This document shows, piece by piece, positions 24,340-32,231 of a stretch of DNA of 40,304 nucleotides (position 1 is the stretch's first letter; every line of letters starts with the position of its first letter). The stretch is taken from NCBI GenBank assembly GCA_013214545.1, contig JABSQB010000031.1, forward strand, positions 1 through 40,304, written 5' to 3'. The notes beneath the pieces are model-generated. The model was not told where the DNA came from and searched no databases. It saw nothing but the letters and a program-made list of their open reading frames with translations. This stretch comes from Henriciella sp. GTDB taxonomy: Bacteria; Pseudomonadota; Alphaproteobacteria; Caulobacterales; Hyphomonadaceae. The position numbers and the translations under genes were made by a program.

Positions 24340-25731
24340 ATGCAAGATCAGCTCAGACGCCTTCCTCAGGTCCAGACGCTGCTGGAAACGCCCGAAGCGG
24401 CAACGCTGATCGCGTTGCACGGCCGCGCCGATGTGACTGAGGCAATTCGCGCTAAGCTCGAGGTCACGCGCGCCAAGATACGCGCCGCAGCGGGGGCGAC
24501 CTTGCAGCCCGTCACAGCGCAATCCCTGTTCCAGGAAATCGGGTCTGAACTCGCTGCCGCCAATGCCCAGACCTTGAAACGCGCGGTCAATGCGACCGGC
24601 GTGATCATTCACACCAATCTCGGCCGCGCGCGCCTCGCCCCGGAAGCGATACAGGCGATGCAAGAGGTTGCCGCGAATTATGCCTCGCTGGAACTCGATC
24701 TCAGCGACGGCAAGCGCGGCTCGCGCCACGCGCATGTCGAGGCACTTATTTGCCAGCTCACCGGCGCGGAAGCGGCGATGGTCGTCAATAATTGCGCTGC
24801 TGCGATCCTCACCTGCCTGAGCGCACTCGGCGCTGGCCGAGATGTGATCGCGTCGCGCGGGGAATTGGTCGAAATTGGCGGCTCGTTCCGGATGCCGGAT
24901 GTGATCACGCAAAGCGGCGCGCGGCTGAAAGAAGTCGGCACGACTAACAAGACGCATCTGCGCGACTATCAATCCGCCATTGATGAAGACACTGCGCTGC
25001 TCCTGAAAAGCCATACCAGTAATTACAGCATTGTCGGCTTCACCTCTGTCCCAACGCGCCAGGAGCTGTCGCGACTGGCACGAGAGACAGGCACCATTTT
25101 GGTCGAGGATTTGGGTAGCGGCGTGCTGATCGATCTGTCTCAGCACGGCCTGAACCAGGAACCGGTGGTGGGCGACGTTCTGAAAGCTGGCGTCGATCTG
25201 GTGACGTTTTCTGGCGACAAGCTCCTTGGTGGTCCGCAGGCCGGGGTTATTGCCGGCCGCCGCGCGCTGGTCGAGACGATCAAGAAGCACCCGATCGCGC
25301 GGGCTGTGCGCATCGACAAGCTCTCACTCGCCGCCTTGCGCGCGACGCTGGAACTGTACCGCCCGCCGCATGATCCGATGGCGCGCATTCCGGTGCTGAA
25401 CATGCTGGCCGAGCCGATCCAGCAGGTCGAAGCGCGGGCGCACAAGCTGCTGTCAGTGCTGGGTGCGCATGGCGTCCTTAAGTCGGATCTCATAGAGACC
25501 ACGGCACGGGCAGGCGCTGGGTCGCTGCCCAATCAGGACCTGCCGAGCTTCGCGGTCGCGCTGACCAGCCCGGCGCAATCCGTCGAACAGCTGGCGTCTG
25601 CCTTGCGCGATGCGGAGACACCGGTGATTGGCCGCATCTCGAAGGACCAGCTGCTGCTCGATATGCGCACGGTGAGCGAGGATGAAGTCGCGCTGATCGC
25701 TGACGTCTGCCAATCCATTCTGCCTGAATGA
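24340..25731 (+). CDS. selA: L-seryl-tRNA(Sec) selenium transferase
   Basis: 463-residue PLP enzyme that converts Ser-tRNA-Sec to Sec-tRNA-Sec with selenophosphate. The PLP-binding lysine is K294 in S-G-D-K-L-L-G-G-P-Q-A-G, matching K295 of E. coli SelA. The N-terminal segment (LRRLPQVQTLLETPEA) is also typical. It opens a plus-strand selenocysteine cassette, and its TGA overlaps the selB ATG. The ribosome site is modest (GGAA). The 167-nt divergent region shared with fabY should hold the cassette promoter; TTGATAGATT near 24272 is only a weak -10 candidate. Confidence 0.96.
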   Translation: MQDQLRRLPQVQTLLETPEAATLIALHGRADVTEAIRAKLEVTRAKIRAAAGATLQPVTAQSLFQEIGSELAAANAQTLKRAVNATGVIIHTNLGRARLAPEAIQAMQEVAANYASLELDLSDGKRGSRHAHVEALICQLTGAEAAMVVNNCAAAILTCLSALGAGRDVIASRGELVEIGGSFRMPDVITQSGARLKEVGTTNKTHLRDYQSAIDEDTALLLKSHTSNYSIVGFTSVPTRQELSRLARETGTILVEDLGSGVLIDLSQHGLNQEPVVGDVLKAGVDLVTFSGDKLLGGPQAGVIAGRRALVETIKKHPIARAVRIDKLSLAALRATLELYRPPHDPMARIPVLNMLAEPIQQVEARAHKLLSVLGAHGVLKSDLIETTARAGAGSLPNQDLPSFAVALTSPAQSVEQLASALRDAETPVIGRISKDQLLLDMRTVSEDEVALIADVCQSILPE

Positions 25732-27614
25732 TGCACAAGACCATCGCGGTCATCGGCCATGTCGATCACGGCAAGACAGCGCTGGTGAAGGCTCTGACCG
25801 GCGTCGAGATGGACACGCTCGCCGAAGAGCGCGCGCGCGGGTTGACCATCACGCTCGGGTTCGCCCATCGCGAGACGGAGCGCGGATGGCTGCATTTCAT
25901 CGACGCGCCGGGCCATTCTGATTTCGTGCGCACCACAGCTGCCGGACTAAGCGGCGTTGACGGGGTGCTGCTCGCGGTATCATGCACGGATGGCATTCAG
26001 GCGCAGACGCGCGAACATTTGCGCCTCGCCCACTGTCTCGGCATCCGGCAGATCATCGTTGCGCTGACGAAGGCTGACCTCGCCGCTGATGTGGTGGTGG
26101 TGCGCACCCGAGCCGAGATCGAGTCAGAGCTGAACGCCTATTCGATCGAGCCTGTCGCTATTGTCGCTTCATCCTCGCTGACCGGTAAGGGTTCGGACTC
26201 TCTTGGACAGGCTCTGGAGCGCTTTCTGGACCTGCCTCAGCACAGGGTTCGTTTGCCGGGTTTCTACCTTCCCGTGGACCGGGTCTTCACCGCGCCAGGG
26301 GTCGGAACCGTGGTCACCGGAACCCTGATCGGCGGCGAAATTGCGCGCGAGGATGCGGCAGCAATTGCGCCGAACGGCCCCGCAACAAGCGTGCGCAGTC
26401 TACAGGTCGCGGGTACTGATCAGACCTCAGCGACGCCCGGATCGCGCGTCGCGGTCAACCTGCGCGGGCTCGAGACATCCGCGCTCCGAAAAGGCTCCGT
26501 GGTCTATGCTCCTAACGCCGGGTTCGAGCCATCAAACCGGTTTGATGTCGCCCTCGACGCGGCGGACAAAGACGGCCTGCACCTCAAACACATGGATGAG
26601 GTCATGGTGATGCTCGGCACCGCTTACGAACCCGCCCGAGTGCGCTTCCACACGCCAGATGTCGCCGCGGGCGAAACCGTCCTGGCACAGCTGGCGTTTA
26701 ACCGGCCGCAGGTCGGCTATACAGGCCAGCGCCTTGTCCTCCGCAATCCAGCAGCGGCGCAAATCATCTGCGGCGGCGCGATTATAGACTCGGTGGCATC
26801 GCCGGGTCGGCGGAACAAGGACGCACACCAAGCCGTCCTGCGCGCCGCACTTGAGGGCGCGCCAGACGCCATCGCCAACGCGCTCGCCGACCGGGACAAG
26901 GGTGTCGTCTCACTGCCCGAATTGGCGCGGCTCTCCGGGCTCAATCCCGATCAAATCACGCCGCTGCTCAAGGCGTCATTTGAGCTGGGCAAAGCGGGAC
27001 TCGCACTCCGCACCTCTGATATTGAGCGCACCTGCAAGGCGTTTCTGACCGCCCTCGCCGCGCAGCATGAAGCTCGGCCGCTGCGCCCCCATCATCCAAT
27101 CGACGCCTTTCGCACCGCACTGGGCCGCCTGCCAAAAGCGCTCGTTGAACAGGCTGAACGCCGTCTGCTTGATGCAGGCCAGGTCATCGCTGATGAAACT
27201 GGGGTGGCTCTTGCGAGCCATGACCCGCTGGCGCACATCACGCAGGAGCAAGCCGCAGCGCTCGCGGATCTCGAACAGCAATTGCAAACCCTCGCCCTTC
27301 GCCCCGGATCGCGGCTCGACCCTAAATCAACGTCACCTGAGCAGGACGACATGATCGAGCTTCTGATGGCCACCGGCAAGGTCATCCGCCTGTACAATCA
27401 TGCGCTTAATCAGCAGGTCTTGCTGCATGTGAGCGCGATCCAGTTGGCCAGAGAAACGCTTCAGCAGGCCTTTCCTGGCAATGCACATTTCACCACAGGA
27501 GAAGCCCGCAGCGCGCTGAAGACAAACCGGAAAATCATCGTGCCCTTGCTCGAGTTCCTGGACGCTGAGGGCACCACCAAGCGCGAAGGGGATGTGCGCT
27601 ACATCACGGGTTGA
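25728..27614 (+). CDS. selB: selenocysteine-specific translation elongation factor
   Basis: 628-residue GTPase that binds Sec-tRNA-Sec and the SECIS hairpin to recode UGA. G1 is GHVDHGKT (about 10-17), G3 is DAPGHSDF and G4 is TKAD. EF-Tu-like domains II and III follow, then C-terminal winged-helix repeats (about 400-628) that bind the SECIS RNA. ATGA overlap with selA implies coupling. An adjacent second Met codon (25731) is an equally possible start. The intact length and motifs argue for a working factor. Confidence 0.96.
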   Translation: MMHKTIAVIGHVDHGKTALVKALTGVEMDTLAEERARGLTITLGFAHRETERGWLHFIDAPGHSDFVRTTAAGLSGVDGVLLAVSCTDGIQAQTREHLRLAHCLGIRQIIVALTKADLAADVVVVRTRAEIESELNAYSIEPVAIVASSSLTGKGSDSLGQALERFLDLPQHRVRLPGFYLPVDRVFTAPGVGTVVTGTLIGGEIAREDAAAIAPNGPATSVRSLQVAGTDQTSATPGSRVAVNLRGLETSALRKGSVVYAPNAGFEPSNRFDVALDAADKDGLHLKHMDEVMVMLGTAYEPARVRFHTPDVAAGETVLAQLAFNRPQVGYTGQRLVLRNPAAAQIICGGAIIDSVASPGRRNKDAHQAVLRAALEGAPDAIANALADRDKGVVSLPELARLSGLNPDQITPLLKASFELGKAGLALRTSDIERTCKAFLTALAAQHEARPLRPHHPIDAFRTALGRLPKALVEQAERRLLDAGQVIADETGVALASHDPLAHITQEQAAALADLEQQLQTLALRPGSRLDPKSTSPEQDDMIELLMATGKVIRLYNHALNQQVLLHVSAIQLARETLQQAFPGNAHFTTGEARSALKTNRKIIVPLLEFLDAEGTTKREGDVRYITG

Positions 27615-27671: not shown

Positions 27672-27767
27672 GGAGGCGACTGGAGTCTGGTGGCTTCCCT
27701 GGTCTTCAAAACCAGCGACGCGTCGTCATCGGCGTGTGGTGGGTTCGATTCCCATCCGCCTCCGCCA
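27672..27767 (+). tRNA. selC: tRNA-Sec (anticodon UCA)
   Basis: A 96-nt cloverleaf with the long extra arm of tRNA-Sec. The anticodon arm is CTGGT / loop CTTCAAA / ACCAG, with anticodon TCA at 27706-27708. The long acceptor pairs GGAGGCG with CGCCTCC; the eighth pair would be an A-C mismatch. The T arm is GTGGG / TTCGATT / CCCAT. A variable arm with ACGC/GCGT pairing lies at 27718-27735. Discriminator G and encoded CCA end at 27767. It lies 57 nt after selB and 67 nt before the thioredoxin-fusion gene on the same strand, so it may be processed from the operon transcript. Confidence 0.95.
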
Positions 27768-29424: not shown

Positions 29425-29438
29425 AAGAAGGAGGACGA

Positions 29439-29957
29439 ATGACAGTCATTCTAGATCCAACCAATGAATCCGTTCCTGTCAGTCGGCAAATCACGCCGCG
29501 CTCTGGCCAGGTCTCGGGTGTGGTTGGCTTGATGGACATTCGCAAACCCAGAGGAGACATTCTGCTCGATGAGCTGGAACGTCTGCTGGCGGACCGGATG
29601 CCGGAGATTGAGGTTCGGCGCTATGCCAAACCGACCTTCACCAAGCCCTGCCCCGATGATTTGCGCGCTCAGATGAAAGCAGAATGTGACTTCGTGGTTG
29701 AAGGACTAGCTGACTGAGGGTCTTGTACGACGTGCAGTATGCACGACACAGTCTGGTTTGAAATCCAGGGCCTTCCGGCAGTCACAATCGCTTCGAGCGA
29801 GTTTCACAATGCTGCTGTCACACAGCGCGAGGCACTCGGCATGAACGATGCCCGCTTCGTCTTGGTTGATCATCCGATTCAGGATGCGACCGATGAAGAA
29901 ATGCGCGCCAAGGCAGCCGCGGTTTATGACCAGGTGGTGGACGCACTCACCGCTTGA
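29439..29957 (+). CDS. UGSC-type selenoprotein (Sec at residue 93)
   Basis: 172-residue selenoprotein read through TGA 29715-29717. Before the TGA are 92 codons after a strong AAGGAGG site; after it the same frame continues for 79 codons to TGA 29955-29957. The product contains U93-G-S-C96-T-T-C99-S-M-H-D, a redox-type U-x-x-C-x-x-C. The downstream part (GLPAVTIASSEFHNAAVTQREALG through VDHPI) is a coherent conserved-looking domain, not a random extension. It matches the UGSC-containing selenoprotein family I recall from marine metagenome surveys; its function is unknown. The Sec machinery flanking it and the SECIS-like hairpin support Sec insertion. Confidence 0.92.
29724..29750 (+). promoter_or_regulatory. 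bacterial SECIS-like hairpin
   Basis: CGTGC (29731-29735) pairs with GCACG (29741-29745) around an AGTAT loop. TGT (29724-29726) can pair with ACA (29748-29750) as a lower stem across an internal loop. The apical loop starts 18 nt after the UGA and has G as its second base, which fits the bacterial SECIS model as I know it (G early in the loop, stem of at least 4 bp, short spacing). It lies wholly inside the coding sequence, as bacterial SECIS elements do. Confidence 0.8.
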
Positions 29958-29978
29958 GCCAATGACACACCAATCAGG

Positions 29979-30012
29979 GCAGCCCGGTTGGCAAACCGGG
30001 CTGCTTGTTTTT
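29979..30012 (+). terminator. intrinsic terminator after the selenoprotein gene
   Basis: A perfect 11-bp stem (29979-29989 / 29994-30004) with a GGCA loop is followed by TTGTTTTT (30005-30012). It begins 21 nt after the selenoprotein stop and 55 nt before the preferred selD start. It should end most of the selA-to-selenoprotein transcript. The ATG at 29988 that would start a longer selD frame lies inside this stem. Confidence 0.85.
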
Positions 30013-30016
30013 GCGA

Positions 30017-30034
30017 CGGTCAGTTTTCTGACCG
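30017..30034 (+). other. second hairpin in the selD leader
   Basis: CGGTCAG (30017-30023) and CTGACCG (30028-30034) form a perfect 7-bp stem with a TTTT loop. It sits directly behind the terminator and 8 nt before the AAAGGAA ribosome site of selD. It may shape the selD leader or protect the 5' end of a processed mRNA. There is no T-tract, so it is not a second terminator. Confidence 0.5.
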
Positions 30035-30059
30035 ATCTTTGGAAAGGAACAGACCAGAT

Positions 30060-32231
30060 TTGAACGCTGCCCGCCCGCTTCCGATTACGCGCAACCTGGT
30101 CTTGCTGGGCGGCGGTCATGCGCATGCCTTGGTACTGAAGAAATGGGCCATGGCGCCTTTGCCAGGGGCGCAGGTCACTTTGGTCGATCCAAATCCCAAG
30201 GCGCCTTATACGGGCATGCTGCCGGGCTATGTTGCAGGCCATTATCAGCGCCGGGACCTCGACATCGATCTGGTACGGCTGGCGCGTGAGGCGGGCGCTC
30301 GTCTGATCATGGATCGCGCCATTGGTATCGATACGGCCTCGCAACGCGTTCAGCTGCAATCTCGGCCCGCCATTGCCTATGATACACTGTCTGTTGATAT
30401 CGGGATCACTTCGAAGCTGACAGAATTGCCGGGCGCAGCGGCGCATCTTGTTCCCGCCAAGCCGCTTGGCGCATTTGCGCAAGCCTGGACGAGGCTTGTA
30501 CAGCAGGTACACGAAACGCAGGTGCCACCTAAGATCGCAATCCTCGGCGCAGGGGTTGGCGGCGTCGAGGTGGCCCTGGCCATGGCCTATCGGCTTGAGG
30601 CGATGGACCTTCCCGGCAAGATCGTCCTAATCGAAGCGGGCGAGACGATCCTGCGCGAAACCGATGCCGGGGTGCGCAGAAAACTGCACGCGGAGCTGGC
30701 GCGCGCCCAAGTCGACATCCTGAGCGACATGACAGTGACGCGCATCACCGCGGATGGCGTCCTCATCGGCGGCGAAGAGCGACTCATTCCAGCGAGTTTC
30801 GTGGTCAGCGCCGCCGGAGCCGCGCCGCAGGCCTGGCTGACCGAGACAGCACTGGATCTGGATCATGATTACATCGCCGTCGATGAGACACTGCGCTCCA
30901 CCAATACACCGCATGTCTTCGCCGCTGGAGATTGCGCGCATCTTGTCCACGCTCCGCGACCCAAAGCGGGCGTCTTCGCGGTGCGCCAGGCGCCAGTTCT
31001 GTTCGACAATTTGCGCGCGGATCTTTCCGGCCGGCCTTTACGCAAATTCTCGCCGCAGCTGTCCTATCTGAAATTGATCTCGACCGGCCGGAAATCGGCG
31101 ATCACCGACAAATGGGGCATCGGGCTCTCCGGCGCGTGGGTCTGGCGCTGGAAGGACCGCATCGATCAGCGCTTCATGGACCAGTTTCGAGAGCCGATGG
31201 AGATGCAGGTACCGACACTGCCGGATCTTCATGCTGCCGGGCTCGACCAATTGCTGAACGCGCATGCACATCAGTGCGGTGGCTGCGGGGCGAAAGTGGC
31301 CCAAAGCACGCTGTCCGAAGGTCTCGGGCACGGATCTGGTGCCTCACTTGAGGACGCTGCGGTCATAGAGCGAGACGGCAAAGCCCAGGTCTTCAGCACC
31401 GATCATTTGCGGGCCTTCAATGCCGATCCTTACATGGTCGCCAAAGCCGCCGCCGTGCATGCGCTGGGTGATGTCTGGGCGATGGGCGCAGTGCCGGAGG
31501 CCGTCCTCGCGCAGATCATCCTGCCGCCGCTCTCGCCAGACAAACAAGCCCTGATGATCGAGGAGATTATGGCCGGTGCAGGCGAAGTCTTTTCCGCCTG
31601 CGGGACGAAGATTGCCGGCGGGCATACCAGCATGGGCGCGGAGCTGACCGTCGGCTTCTCGATCACCGGTCGCCTCGATGGCCCTGCGATCACACATAAG
31701 GGCGCGCAGCCTGGCGACGTCCTGATGCTGACCAAGCCGATCGGGACCGGCACCCTGCTCGCCGCAGAGATGCGTCAGCTTGCCGACGGTGCTGACTATC
31801 AGGCGGCGCTGGAAGTGATGTGTCGACCGCAGGCCACGGCCTCGCAGCTGCTCAGCGCGCATGCGACGGCGCTGACCGACGTGACCGGGTTTGGCCTTGC
31901 CGGTCACTTGTTCAACATCCTCGACGCATCAGGCGTCTCGGCGCGGCTCGATCTGCAAGCTATTCCGCTGCTCGACGGCGCTCTGTCGCTGGCCGAGCGC
32001 GATGTTCGGTCGACACTCTGGCCTGCGAATTTTGCTCAAAGCGCGCGCATGACGATGACACAATCTGCGCGGAGCGACCTGCTCTTCGATCCGCAGACCT
32101 GCGGCGGCTTGTTGGCCGCCATTCCGGCCAAGGCCGAAGCCGAATTAATCGCCGCGTTCCAATCCGCCGGGGAACCGATCTGGAAGATTGGTGACATCTC
32201 CGCAGGCGATCCTCATATTCTCGTAGAATGA
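30060..32231 (+). CDS. selD: FAD/NAD(P) oxidoreductase-SelD fusion (selenide, water dikinase)
   Basis: Bifunctional protein of 723 residues from the TTG start. Residues about 1-370 form an NDH-2-like FAD/NAD(P) oxidoreductase: an N-terminal L-L-G-G-G-H-A-H-A, a second Rossmann motif ILGAGVGGVE, and VFAAGDCAH. The C-terminal part (about 400-723) is SelD, making selenophosphate from selenide and ATP, with the C-G-A-K-V catalytic motif. SelD therefore carries Cys rather than Sec. The open frame extends to an ATG at 29988, but that lies in the terminator stem; TTG 30060 has AAAGGAA upstream and gives the family-like N-terminus. Such fusions are known; the oxidoreductase may feed or handle reduced selenium (inference). 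Confidence 0.92.
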   Translation: MNAARPLPITRNLVLLGGGHAHALVLKKWAMAPLPGAQVTLVDPNPKAPYTGMLPGYVAGHYQRRDLDIDLVRLAREAGARLIMDRAIGIDTASQRVQLQSRPAIAYDTLSVDIGITSKLTELPGAAAHLVPAKPLGAFAQAWTRLVQQVHETQVPPKIAILGAGVGGVEVALAMAYRLEAMDLPGKIVLIEAGETILRETDAGVRRKLHAELARAQVDILSDMTVTRITADGVLIGGEERLIPASFVVSAAGAAPQAWLTETALDLDHDYIAVDETLRSTNTPHVFAAGDCAHLVHAPRPKAGVFAVRQAPVLFDNLRADLSGRPLRKFSPQLSYLKLISTGRKSAITDKWGIGLSGAWVWRWKDRIDQRFMDQFREPMEMQVPTLPDLHAAGLDQLLNAHAHQCGGCGAKVAQSTLSEGLGHGSGASLEDAAVIERDGKAQVFSTDHLRAFNADPYMVAKAAAVHALGDVWAMGAVPEAVLAQIILPPLSPDKQALMIEEIMAGAGEVFSACGTKIAGGHTSMGAELTVGFSITGRLDGPAITHKGAQPGDVLMLTKPIGTGTLLAAEMRQLADGADYQAALEVMCRPQATASQLLSAHATALTDVTGFGLAGHLFNILDASGVSARLDLQAIPLLDGALSLAERDVRSTLWPANFAQSARMTMTQSARSDLLFDPQTCGGLLAAIPAKAEAELIAAFQSAGEPIWKIGDISAGDPHILVE

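Follow-up and report, generated by a model that had tools for sequence, protein, structure and literature searches.

A UGSC selenoprotein gene of Henriciella sp. and its thioredoxin-domain partner, a candidate PrdB/GrdB-like selenoenzyme

Two adjacent open reading frames in Henriciella sp. (order Caulobacterales; GenBank assembly GCA_013214545.1, contig JABSQB010000031.1, positions 1 to 40,304, hereafter the window of 40,304 nucleotides, nt) raise the question of whether a TGA divides two genes or encodes selenocysteine (Sec) within one, and what the resulting protein might do. A preliminary description of this DNA had joined the two frames into one selenoprotein gene of the UGSC family, and our analysis supports this. 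A single open frame runs from ATG 29439 through TGA 29715–29717 to the final TGA 29955–29957, and the second open-frame fragment, which begins at ATG 29739, lies in the same frame throughout. The codons after the in-frame UGA read G-S-C-T-T-C-S, so that the joined protein contains U93-G-S-C96-T-T-C99, as had been read, and satisfies the motif UxxCxxC (U93, C96, C99). The read-through product matches PF24696 (UGSC) with an E-value of 7.6e-50 (169.8 bits, cut-off 25; model positions 2–171 of 172) and NF041046 ('UGSC family (seleno)protein') with 172.4 bits (cut-off 125; model positions 4–147 of 147). Both matches exceed the curated cut-offs and extend on both sides of the UGA. Judged by its sequence, the gene is a genuine member of the known UGSC family, because the model matches span the UGA, the TGA is constant among relatives, the Sec insertion sequence (SECIS) is conserved and selA co-occurs with UGSC.

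The protein itself shows no difference from the family described under PF24696, NF041046 and the UGSC-containing protein of PMC2398784, with which it shares the motif and a full-length match. In ocean-sampling metagenomes UGSC was one of the most frequently seen selenoproteins, with 255 sequences (PMC2398784). The view that its function is not established also stands, since a 2026 review calls the functions of such families largely uncharacterised (PMC13188914).

The Sec codon is constant among close relatives. A search with a single protein query, using patterns that did not include the Sec codon, found 73 loci of named genomes. In two of these (L072 and L073) the site is lost at a contig end, and in the remaining 71 and the window codon 93 is TGA (72/72 readable sites). 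Both halves of the gene are conserved down to 52% identity in the fetched loci. Forms with Cys at position 93 are under-counted in this set, because a search from one protein sequence retrieves only close relatives. Whole-genome family searches found UGSC in 21 of 299 genomes of the order, at 22 places (18 with one TGA, four without), and in five of 398 genomes of the phylum. Carriage is patchy and restricted to a minority, including 6 of 22 genomes of the same genus. Forms without the TGA have Cys there, reading C-G-S-C in L078, L096, L097 and L100 and C-S-T-C in L098. In a deliberately diverse alignment of 26 rows, reaching down to 21% identity to the window protein, U/C93, C96, P7 and F122 are invariant; all 26 homologues span both sides of the UGA with Sec or Cys at the site. 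Standard gene calls are truncated, as the preliminary description had forecast: 114 of 120 listed public proteins stop at residues preceding the Sec codon (a pattern count gives 115, including P0004, which spans the site and has a like-lettered end by chance). Exceptions at position 93 among the 120 are Gly in P0002 and Trp in three proteins from contigs shorter than 1 kb, in which the UGA may have been read as Trp.

A SECIS-like hairpin after the UGA had also been proposed, and is borne out by conserved pairing and covariation. The hairpin begins 13 nt past the UGA; counted from the U of the UGA, nt 17–22 pair with nt 26–31 around a GTN loop. All six stem pairs are complete in 71 of 72 sites, and L047 retains five. 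Codons 98 and 102 occur as ACG/CAC (44 sites), ACG/CAT (20), ACA/CAT (5) and TCG/CAC (3, with Ser at 98), and the non-pairing combination ACA/CAC is absent. The Cys99 codon is TGC in 72/72 and the Ser100 codon AGT in 71/71 (L047 has Cys at 100), while residue 101 is Met, Leu or Val with a codon that is always NTG. For the covariation analysis the 72 sites were reduced to 42 distinct 48-nt sequences, with L002 excluded as identical to the window, and two more distant Sec forms were added to give 44 rows. In these, 99.6% of the stem cells pair. The paired share, the doubly changed cells and the covariation score were reached by none of 500 shuffles, and the counts of pairs and of pair types by 16 of 500, by shuffles that ignore relatedness. 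One distant form carries G-C in place of a C-G pair, along with a Cys99 to Trp change. The loop carries G and U at nt 23–24, as does the fetched E. coli fdhF; this GU is presumably what SelB reads. Codons 94–104 as a block show marginally lower synonymous variation (10 versus 40 columns, Mann-Whitney p 0.049), and this signal sits in the stem codons, not in the whole block. Overall, the sequence evidence for Sec insertion at UGA 93 with this SECIS is strong.

The Sec-decoding genes that had been recognised around the UGSC gene, selA, selB and tRNA-Sec upstream and selD downstream, are confirmed by family models, ARAGORN and Rfam (Table 1). Across the order, selA exceeds the cut-off in 17 of the 299 genomes, and all 17 have UGSC; four further genomes have weak selA-like matches below the cut-off. 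Of the UGSC carriers, four have no selA: three without an in-frame UGA and one (G649) with it. This order-wide tie between selA and UGSC suggests a reason why these bacteria retain Sec. Six other families were searched in the genome of the window. PF07355, SelW and tRNA selenouridine synthase gave no match there, Fdh-alpha gave only weak fragments below the cut-off, and none of the nine AhpC/TSA or eight CMD matches has an internal stop. Judged from these six families, UGSC is likely the only selenoprotein of this genome, and the Sec machinery is probably kept for it alone.

The gene directly upstream, tlpU (a name coined here), ends 14 nt ahead of the UGSC start. Residues ~1–135 of its product form a TlpA-like thioredoxin domain with the motif CETC, and residues ~150–525 an unnamed conserved domain, here called partner-C. 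The thioredoxin part matches PF00578 with an E-value of 1.2e-5, slightly below the cut-off, and residues 1–135 of a modelled relative (L046) take a TlpA/ResA-like thioredoxin fold in structure searches. A relative of this partner lies upstream of UGSC in 68 of the 73 loci, or 68 of the 69 where the position is visible, the four others starting at a contig end. In 64 of the 68 the partner and UGSC matches are at most 118 nt apart, stop codon counted. The partner matches in L049 and L030 are partial, and the listing of 70 partner matches counts the window under two names.

The partner shares its modelled fold and the CxxC with TlpA/ResA/DsbE-type thioredoxins; unlike them, it is fused to a conserved domain of ~370 residues that has no library match. 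Across 18 aligned rows, partner-C keeps 29 columns invariant. It matched nothing in Pfam or in NCBIfam (scanned with the window, L101 and L107 proteins), and among PDB sequences the only matches were those of the thioredoxin part and GabR-like ones at E 0.02. A partner-C profile found the domain in all six divergent loci, of which L101, L107 and L109 were in the profile and L105, L106 and L108 independent. In the distant relatives L107 and L109 the partner lacks the thioredoxin part; in L097, L098 and L099/L104 (with an internal UGA) partner-C and UGSC form one chain. A thioredoxin-reductase-like gene lies near two Cys-form loci (L101, 403 bits, above the cut-off; L103, 273 bits, below the cut-off of 343). 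The near-fixed position of a thioredoxin plus partner-C gene next to UGSC is new here and absent from the preliminary description, and the accessible passages of the UGSC literature do not mention the pairing either. UGSC has been reported fused to a domain named 'Unknown_1' (PMC2398784), which may well be partner-C. From the near-universal pairing and the fusions we infer that UGSC and its partner may act as one reductase.

Sulfitobacter litoralis DSM 17584 (L020) is among the bacteria that have the Sec island. Several loci show other arrangements of the pair. G484 (L099/L104, 7798–9500) has the fused UGSC and partner-C gene, whose in-frame UGA gives U-S-T-C, and selA and a selB-like frame follow it on that strand in the next ~1.3 kb; such a locus would count as another type of Sec island within the order. 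G139 holds two distant UGA forms, U-G-S-C-S-S-C and U-G-S-C-S-S-W (L075/L108 and L079/L107), both of which have a hairpin after them and partner-C close by. In G277 (L077 and L109) the reading frame of a C-G-S-C form of the UGSC gene is interrupted by a stop at another position and by a frame change, and a partner-C gene that is intact lies nearby. L030 (6541–9057; L082 of G649 is this same gene) has a UGA form and a shortened partner. Its UGSC gene sits between two open frames that we take to resemble IS6-type transposases, and it may be a decaying relic of a Sec island.

UGSC was also compared with PrdB/GrdB-type selenoproteins. Six of 20 UGSC-bearing genomes chosen from the 73 loci also have PrdB/GrdB-like genes. 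All eight matches fetched (L118–L125) have an in-frame UGA followed by P-x-C, and TIGR04483, the PrdB model, matched the two proteins scanned at scores under its cut-off. A profile of 13 such proteins (eight UGA forms and five Cys forms) aligned with UGSC residues 80–159, Sec on Sec, with an hhalign probability of 65.6 and an E-value of 5.8e-5. The score of 40.2 compares with a maximum of 19.9 in 100 column shuffles, ~13 on reversal and 14.2 for the partner profile. The likeness exceeds the motif alone, because most of the score remains when the two Sec/Cys columns (36.3) or residues 93–99 (36.7) are masked. This moderate likeness suggests that the UGSC active-site region may be akin to that of PrdB/GrdB-type selenoproteins.

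The motif UxxCxxC starting at the Sec is shared by the UGSC protein of the window with PrdB and GrdB/GrdF/GrdH (PF07355, TIGR04483, TIGR01918). Unlike these proteins, UGSC is shorter, has no HMMER match to them and has no PrdA/GrdE-type partner that we have seen. We take its hosts to be aerobic marine bacteria, in contrast to the anaerobes in which Prd and Grd are known. The motif has been described for grdBFH (PMC6778437), and Grd systems use thioredoxin and thioredoxin reductase along with it (PMC6778437, PMC13188914). The PrdB/GrdB class appears versatile, because a GrdB-like pair has been proposed to cleave a C-F bond (PMC10838667). No GrdB/PrdB link is stated in the accessible UGSC literature, from which subscription papers are mostly absent, so that the link may already be published.

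A joint model of UGSC and its partner, built for the two L046 proteins read as one chain, had a mean predicted local distance difference test (pLDDT) score of 92.3 and a predicted template modelling (pTM) score of 0.81. In this model UGSC alternates strand and helix, and the Sec opens the helix that comes straight after strand four. Searches of the joint model with Foldseek and VIA-align gave lists filled by thioredoxins through the partner's thioredoxin domain, which are uninformative on the folds of UGSC and partner-C, and a viral library gave weak, mixed matches.

Taking these observations together, we favour, on balance, a reading in which UGSC and its partner form a PrdB/GrdB-like selenoenzyme that is coupled to thioredoxin and has a small substrate, its chemistry and substrate being deduced rather than observed. 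The sequences point strongly to Sec insertion at UGA 93 by SelA, SelB and tRNA-Sec, directed by the hairpin, and the UGSC protein would work with the upstream gene product as one reductase. Partner-C would hold the small substrate. Sec93, at its helix start, would be the nucleophile that attacks the substrate, much as the PrdB and GrdB subunits do in D-proline and glycine reductases, backed by C96 and usually C99, which would help to release the product. The partner's thioredoxin domain would then reset the selenium, taking electrons from thioredoxin reductase. A bolder version, which we put forward tentatively and hold to be rather doubtful, is that the pair represents a new class of two-component thioredoxin-coupled selenoenzyme, bringing PrdB/GrdB-type chemistry (selenol attack with reductive cleavage of C-N or other C-heteroatom bonds) to marine proteobacteria, and that within the order the entire Sec-decoding system is maintained and has moved as an island for this single enzyme. 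The partner gene, the thioredoxin link, the fusions and the possible PrdB/GrdB kinship indicate which proteins to pair, which reductant to supply and what kind of reaction to look for. Beyond confirming a member of a known family, the locus adds the partner and the PrdB/GrdB link.

Other explanations were weighed against the same evidence. A reading of the TGA as a genuine stop or as an error of sequencing, leaving two separate or dead halves, would agree with the truncated public proteins and with the TGA form that G649 retains without selA; it is extremely improbable given the TGA in 72/72 sites, the conservation of both halves to 52% identity, the covarying hairpin and the Cys found at the same place elsewhere. 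A sequencing error as the origin of the UGA was rejected. UGSC could instead be a thioredoxin-fold thiol/selenol oxidoreductase or peroxidase in antioxidant defence, as the UxxC motif and the thioredoxin-like partner gene would allow. The 2008 survey, in which UGSC figures as a previously described family, assigns it a likely thioredoxin-like fold (PMC2398784), and the 2026 review lists UGSC beside Prx-, Trx- and Grx-like proteins (PMC13188914). However, the modelled UGSC part does not seem to be thioredoxin-like: strands and helices alternate to the end, the Sec follows the fourth strand and there is no strand hairpin to close the fold, the PDB lists being filled by the partner's thioredoxin domain. 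The order of strands and helices in the thioredoxin fold differs from this. None of 26 UGSC members has a thioredoxin-family Pfam match at E up to 10, and the profile likeness points to PrdB/GrdB, not to thioredoxin, all of which makes this explanation unlikely. We rate slightly lower the idea that the Sec form is real and the pair serves to carry or sense something, for example selenium or a metal, instead of converting a small organic substrate as an enzyme would. Sec machinery often lies beside the pair (tRNA-Sec in 32 of 73 loci), which would suit a selenium module that serves itself; yet at many other loci it stands without sel genes within the fetched stretch, some of these presumably adjoining CaiB/BaiF-, acyl-CoA dehydrogenase- and transporter-like genes, and the 29 invariant columns of partner-C are as in enzymes.

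A number of observations weigh against the thioredoxin-coupled selenoenzyme that we favour. The hhalign probability, based on 71 columns, is lower than is commonly relied on. With HMMER, UGSC shows no tie to another family: the 26 members, searched at E up to 10, matched 14 Pfam families, PF07355 not among them, and besides UGSC itself these were stray matches (best E 0.011, in one member; DUF116 at 0.052, in 3 of 26), and the NCBIfam PrdB/GrdB models did not match the window protein at 1e-3. No PDB chain fell below E 0.89 for the UGSC profile; the PrdB/GrdB-like profile itself has no clear solved relative in the PDB (best E 0.031, a designed protein). Partner-C was not found beside the 13 PrdB/GrdB-like genes, in loci of only ~3.4 kb, and GrdE/PrdA-type families are not among the partner-C matches. 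At L064 the 8 kb ahead of UGSC contain no partner. Several members of the 26-row alignment have another residue at C99, and L062 (7602–8105) has Phe instead of C96 (G-S-F) with UGA and SECIS kept. G649, in which no selA was found, has the UGA form. The AhpC/TSA search of the genome overlooked the weak match of the partner itself, which shows that such matches can escape detection. Finally, gene context points to no substrate in particular, and none is indicated otherwise.

Table 1. Features of the UGSC locus, in window coordinates.
Feature	Position	Strand	Evidence or remark
selA, L-seryl-tRNA(Sec) selenium transferase	24340..25731	+	TIGR00474, 580 bits (cut-off 267.9)
selB, Sec-specific elongation factor	25728..27614	+	TIGR00475, 269.6 bits (cut-off 242.25); SelB winged helix PF09107
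tRNA-Sec (selC), anticodon TCA	27672..27767	+	ARAGORN; Rfam RF01852, 74 bits (gathering 47)
tlpU, partner gene, 529 residues	27835..29424	+	TlpA-like thioredoxin domain and partner-C
Shine-Dalgarno-like AAGGAGG ahead of the UGSC start	29428..29434	+	direct reading
UGSC selenoprotein gene, 172 residues, Sec93/C96/C99	29439..29957	+	PF24696 and NF041046 matches
Sec codon TGA (codon 93)	29715..29717	+	TGA at 72/72 readable sites
SECIS hairpin, stem 29731–29736 with 29740–29745, loop 29737–29739 GTA	29731..29745	+	pairing kept, covariation
Terminator-like hairpin followed by a T run, 3' of the UGSC gene	29977..30006	+	13 pairs
selD fused to an N-terminal pyridine-nucleotide oxidoreductase	29988..32231	+	TIGR00476, 266 bits (cut-off 125); TIGR03169, 501 bits (cut-off 310)

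Among the remaining features, selA and selB overlap by 4 nt. The terminator-like hairpin separates the UGSC gene from selD; it has the most pairs of six such sites in the region, where shuffles give 6.1 by chance. The true start of selD probably lies downstream of TTG 29988. Its motif Q-C-G-G-C-G-A-K marks a Cys form, and the gene is an Ndh-SelD fusion of the kind described in PMC2398784, with CxxC and with no difference noted from the accessible description.
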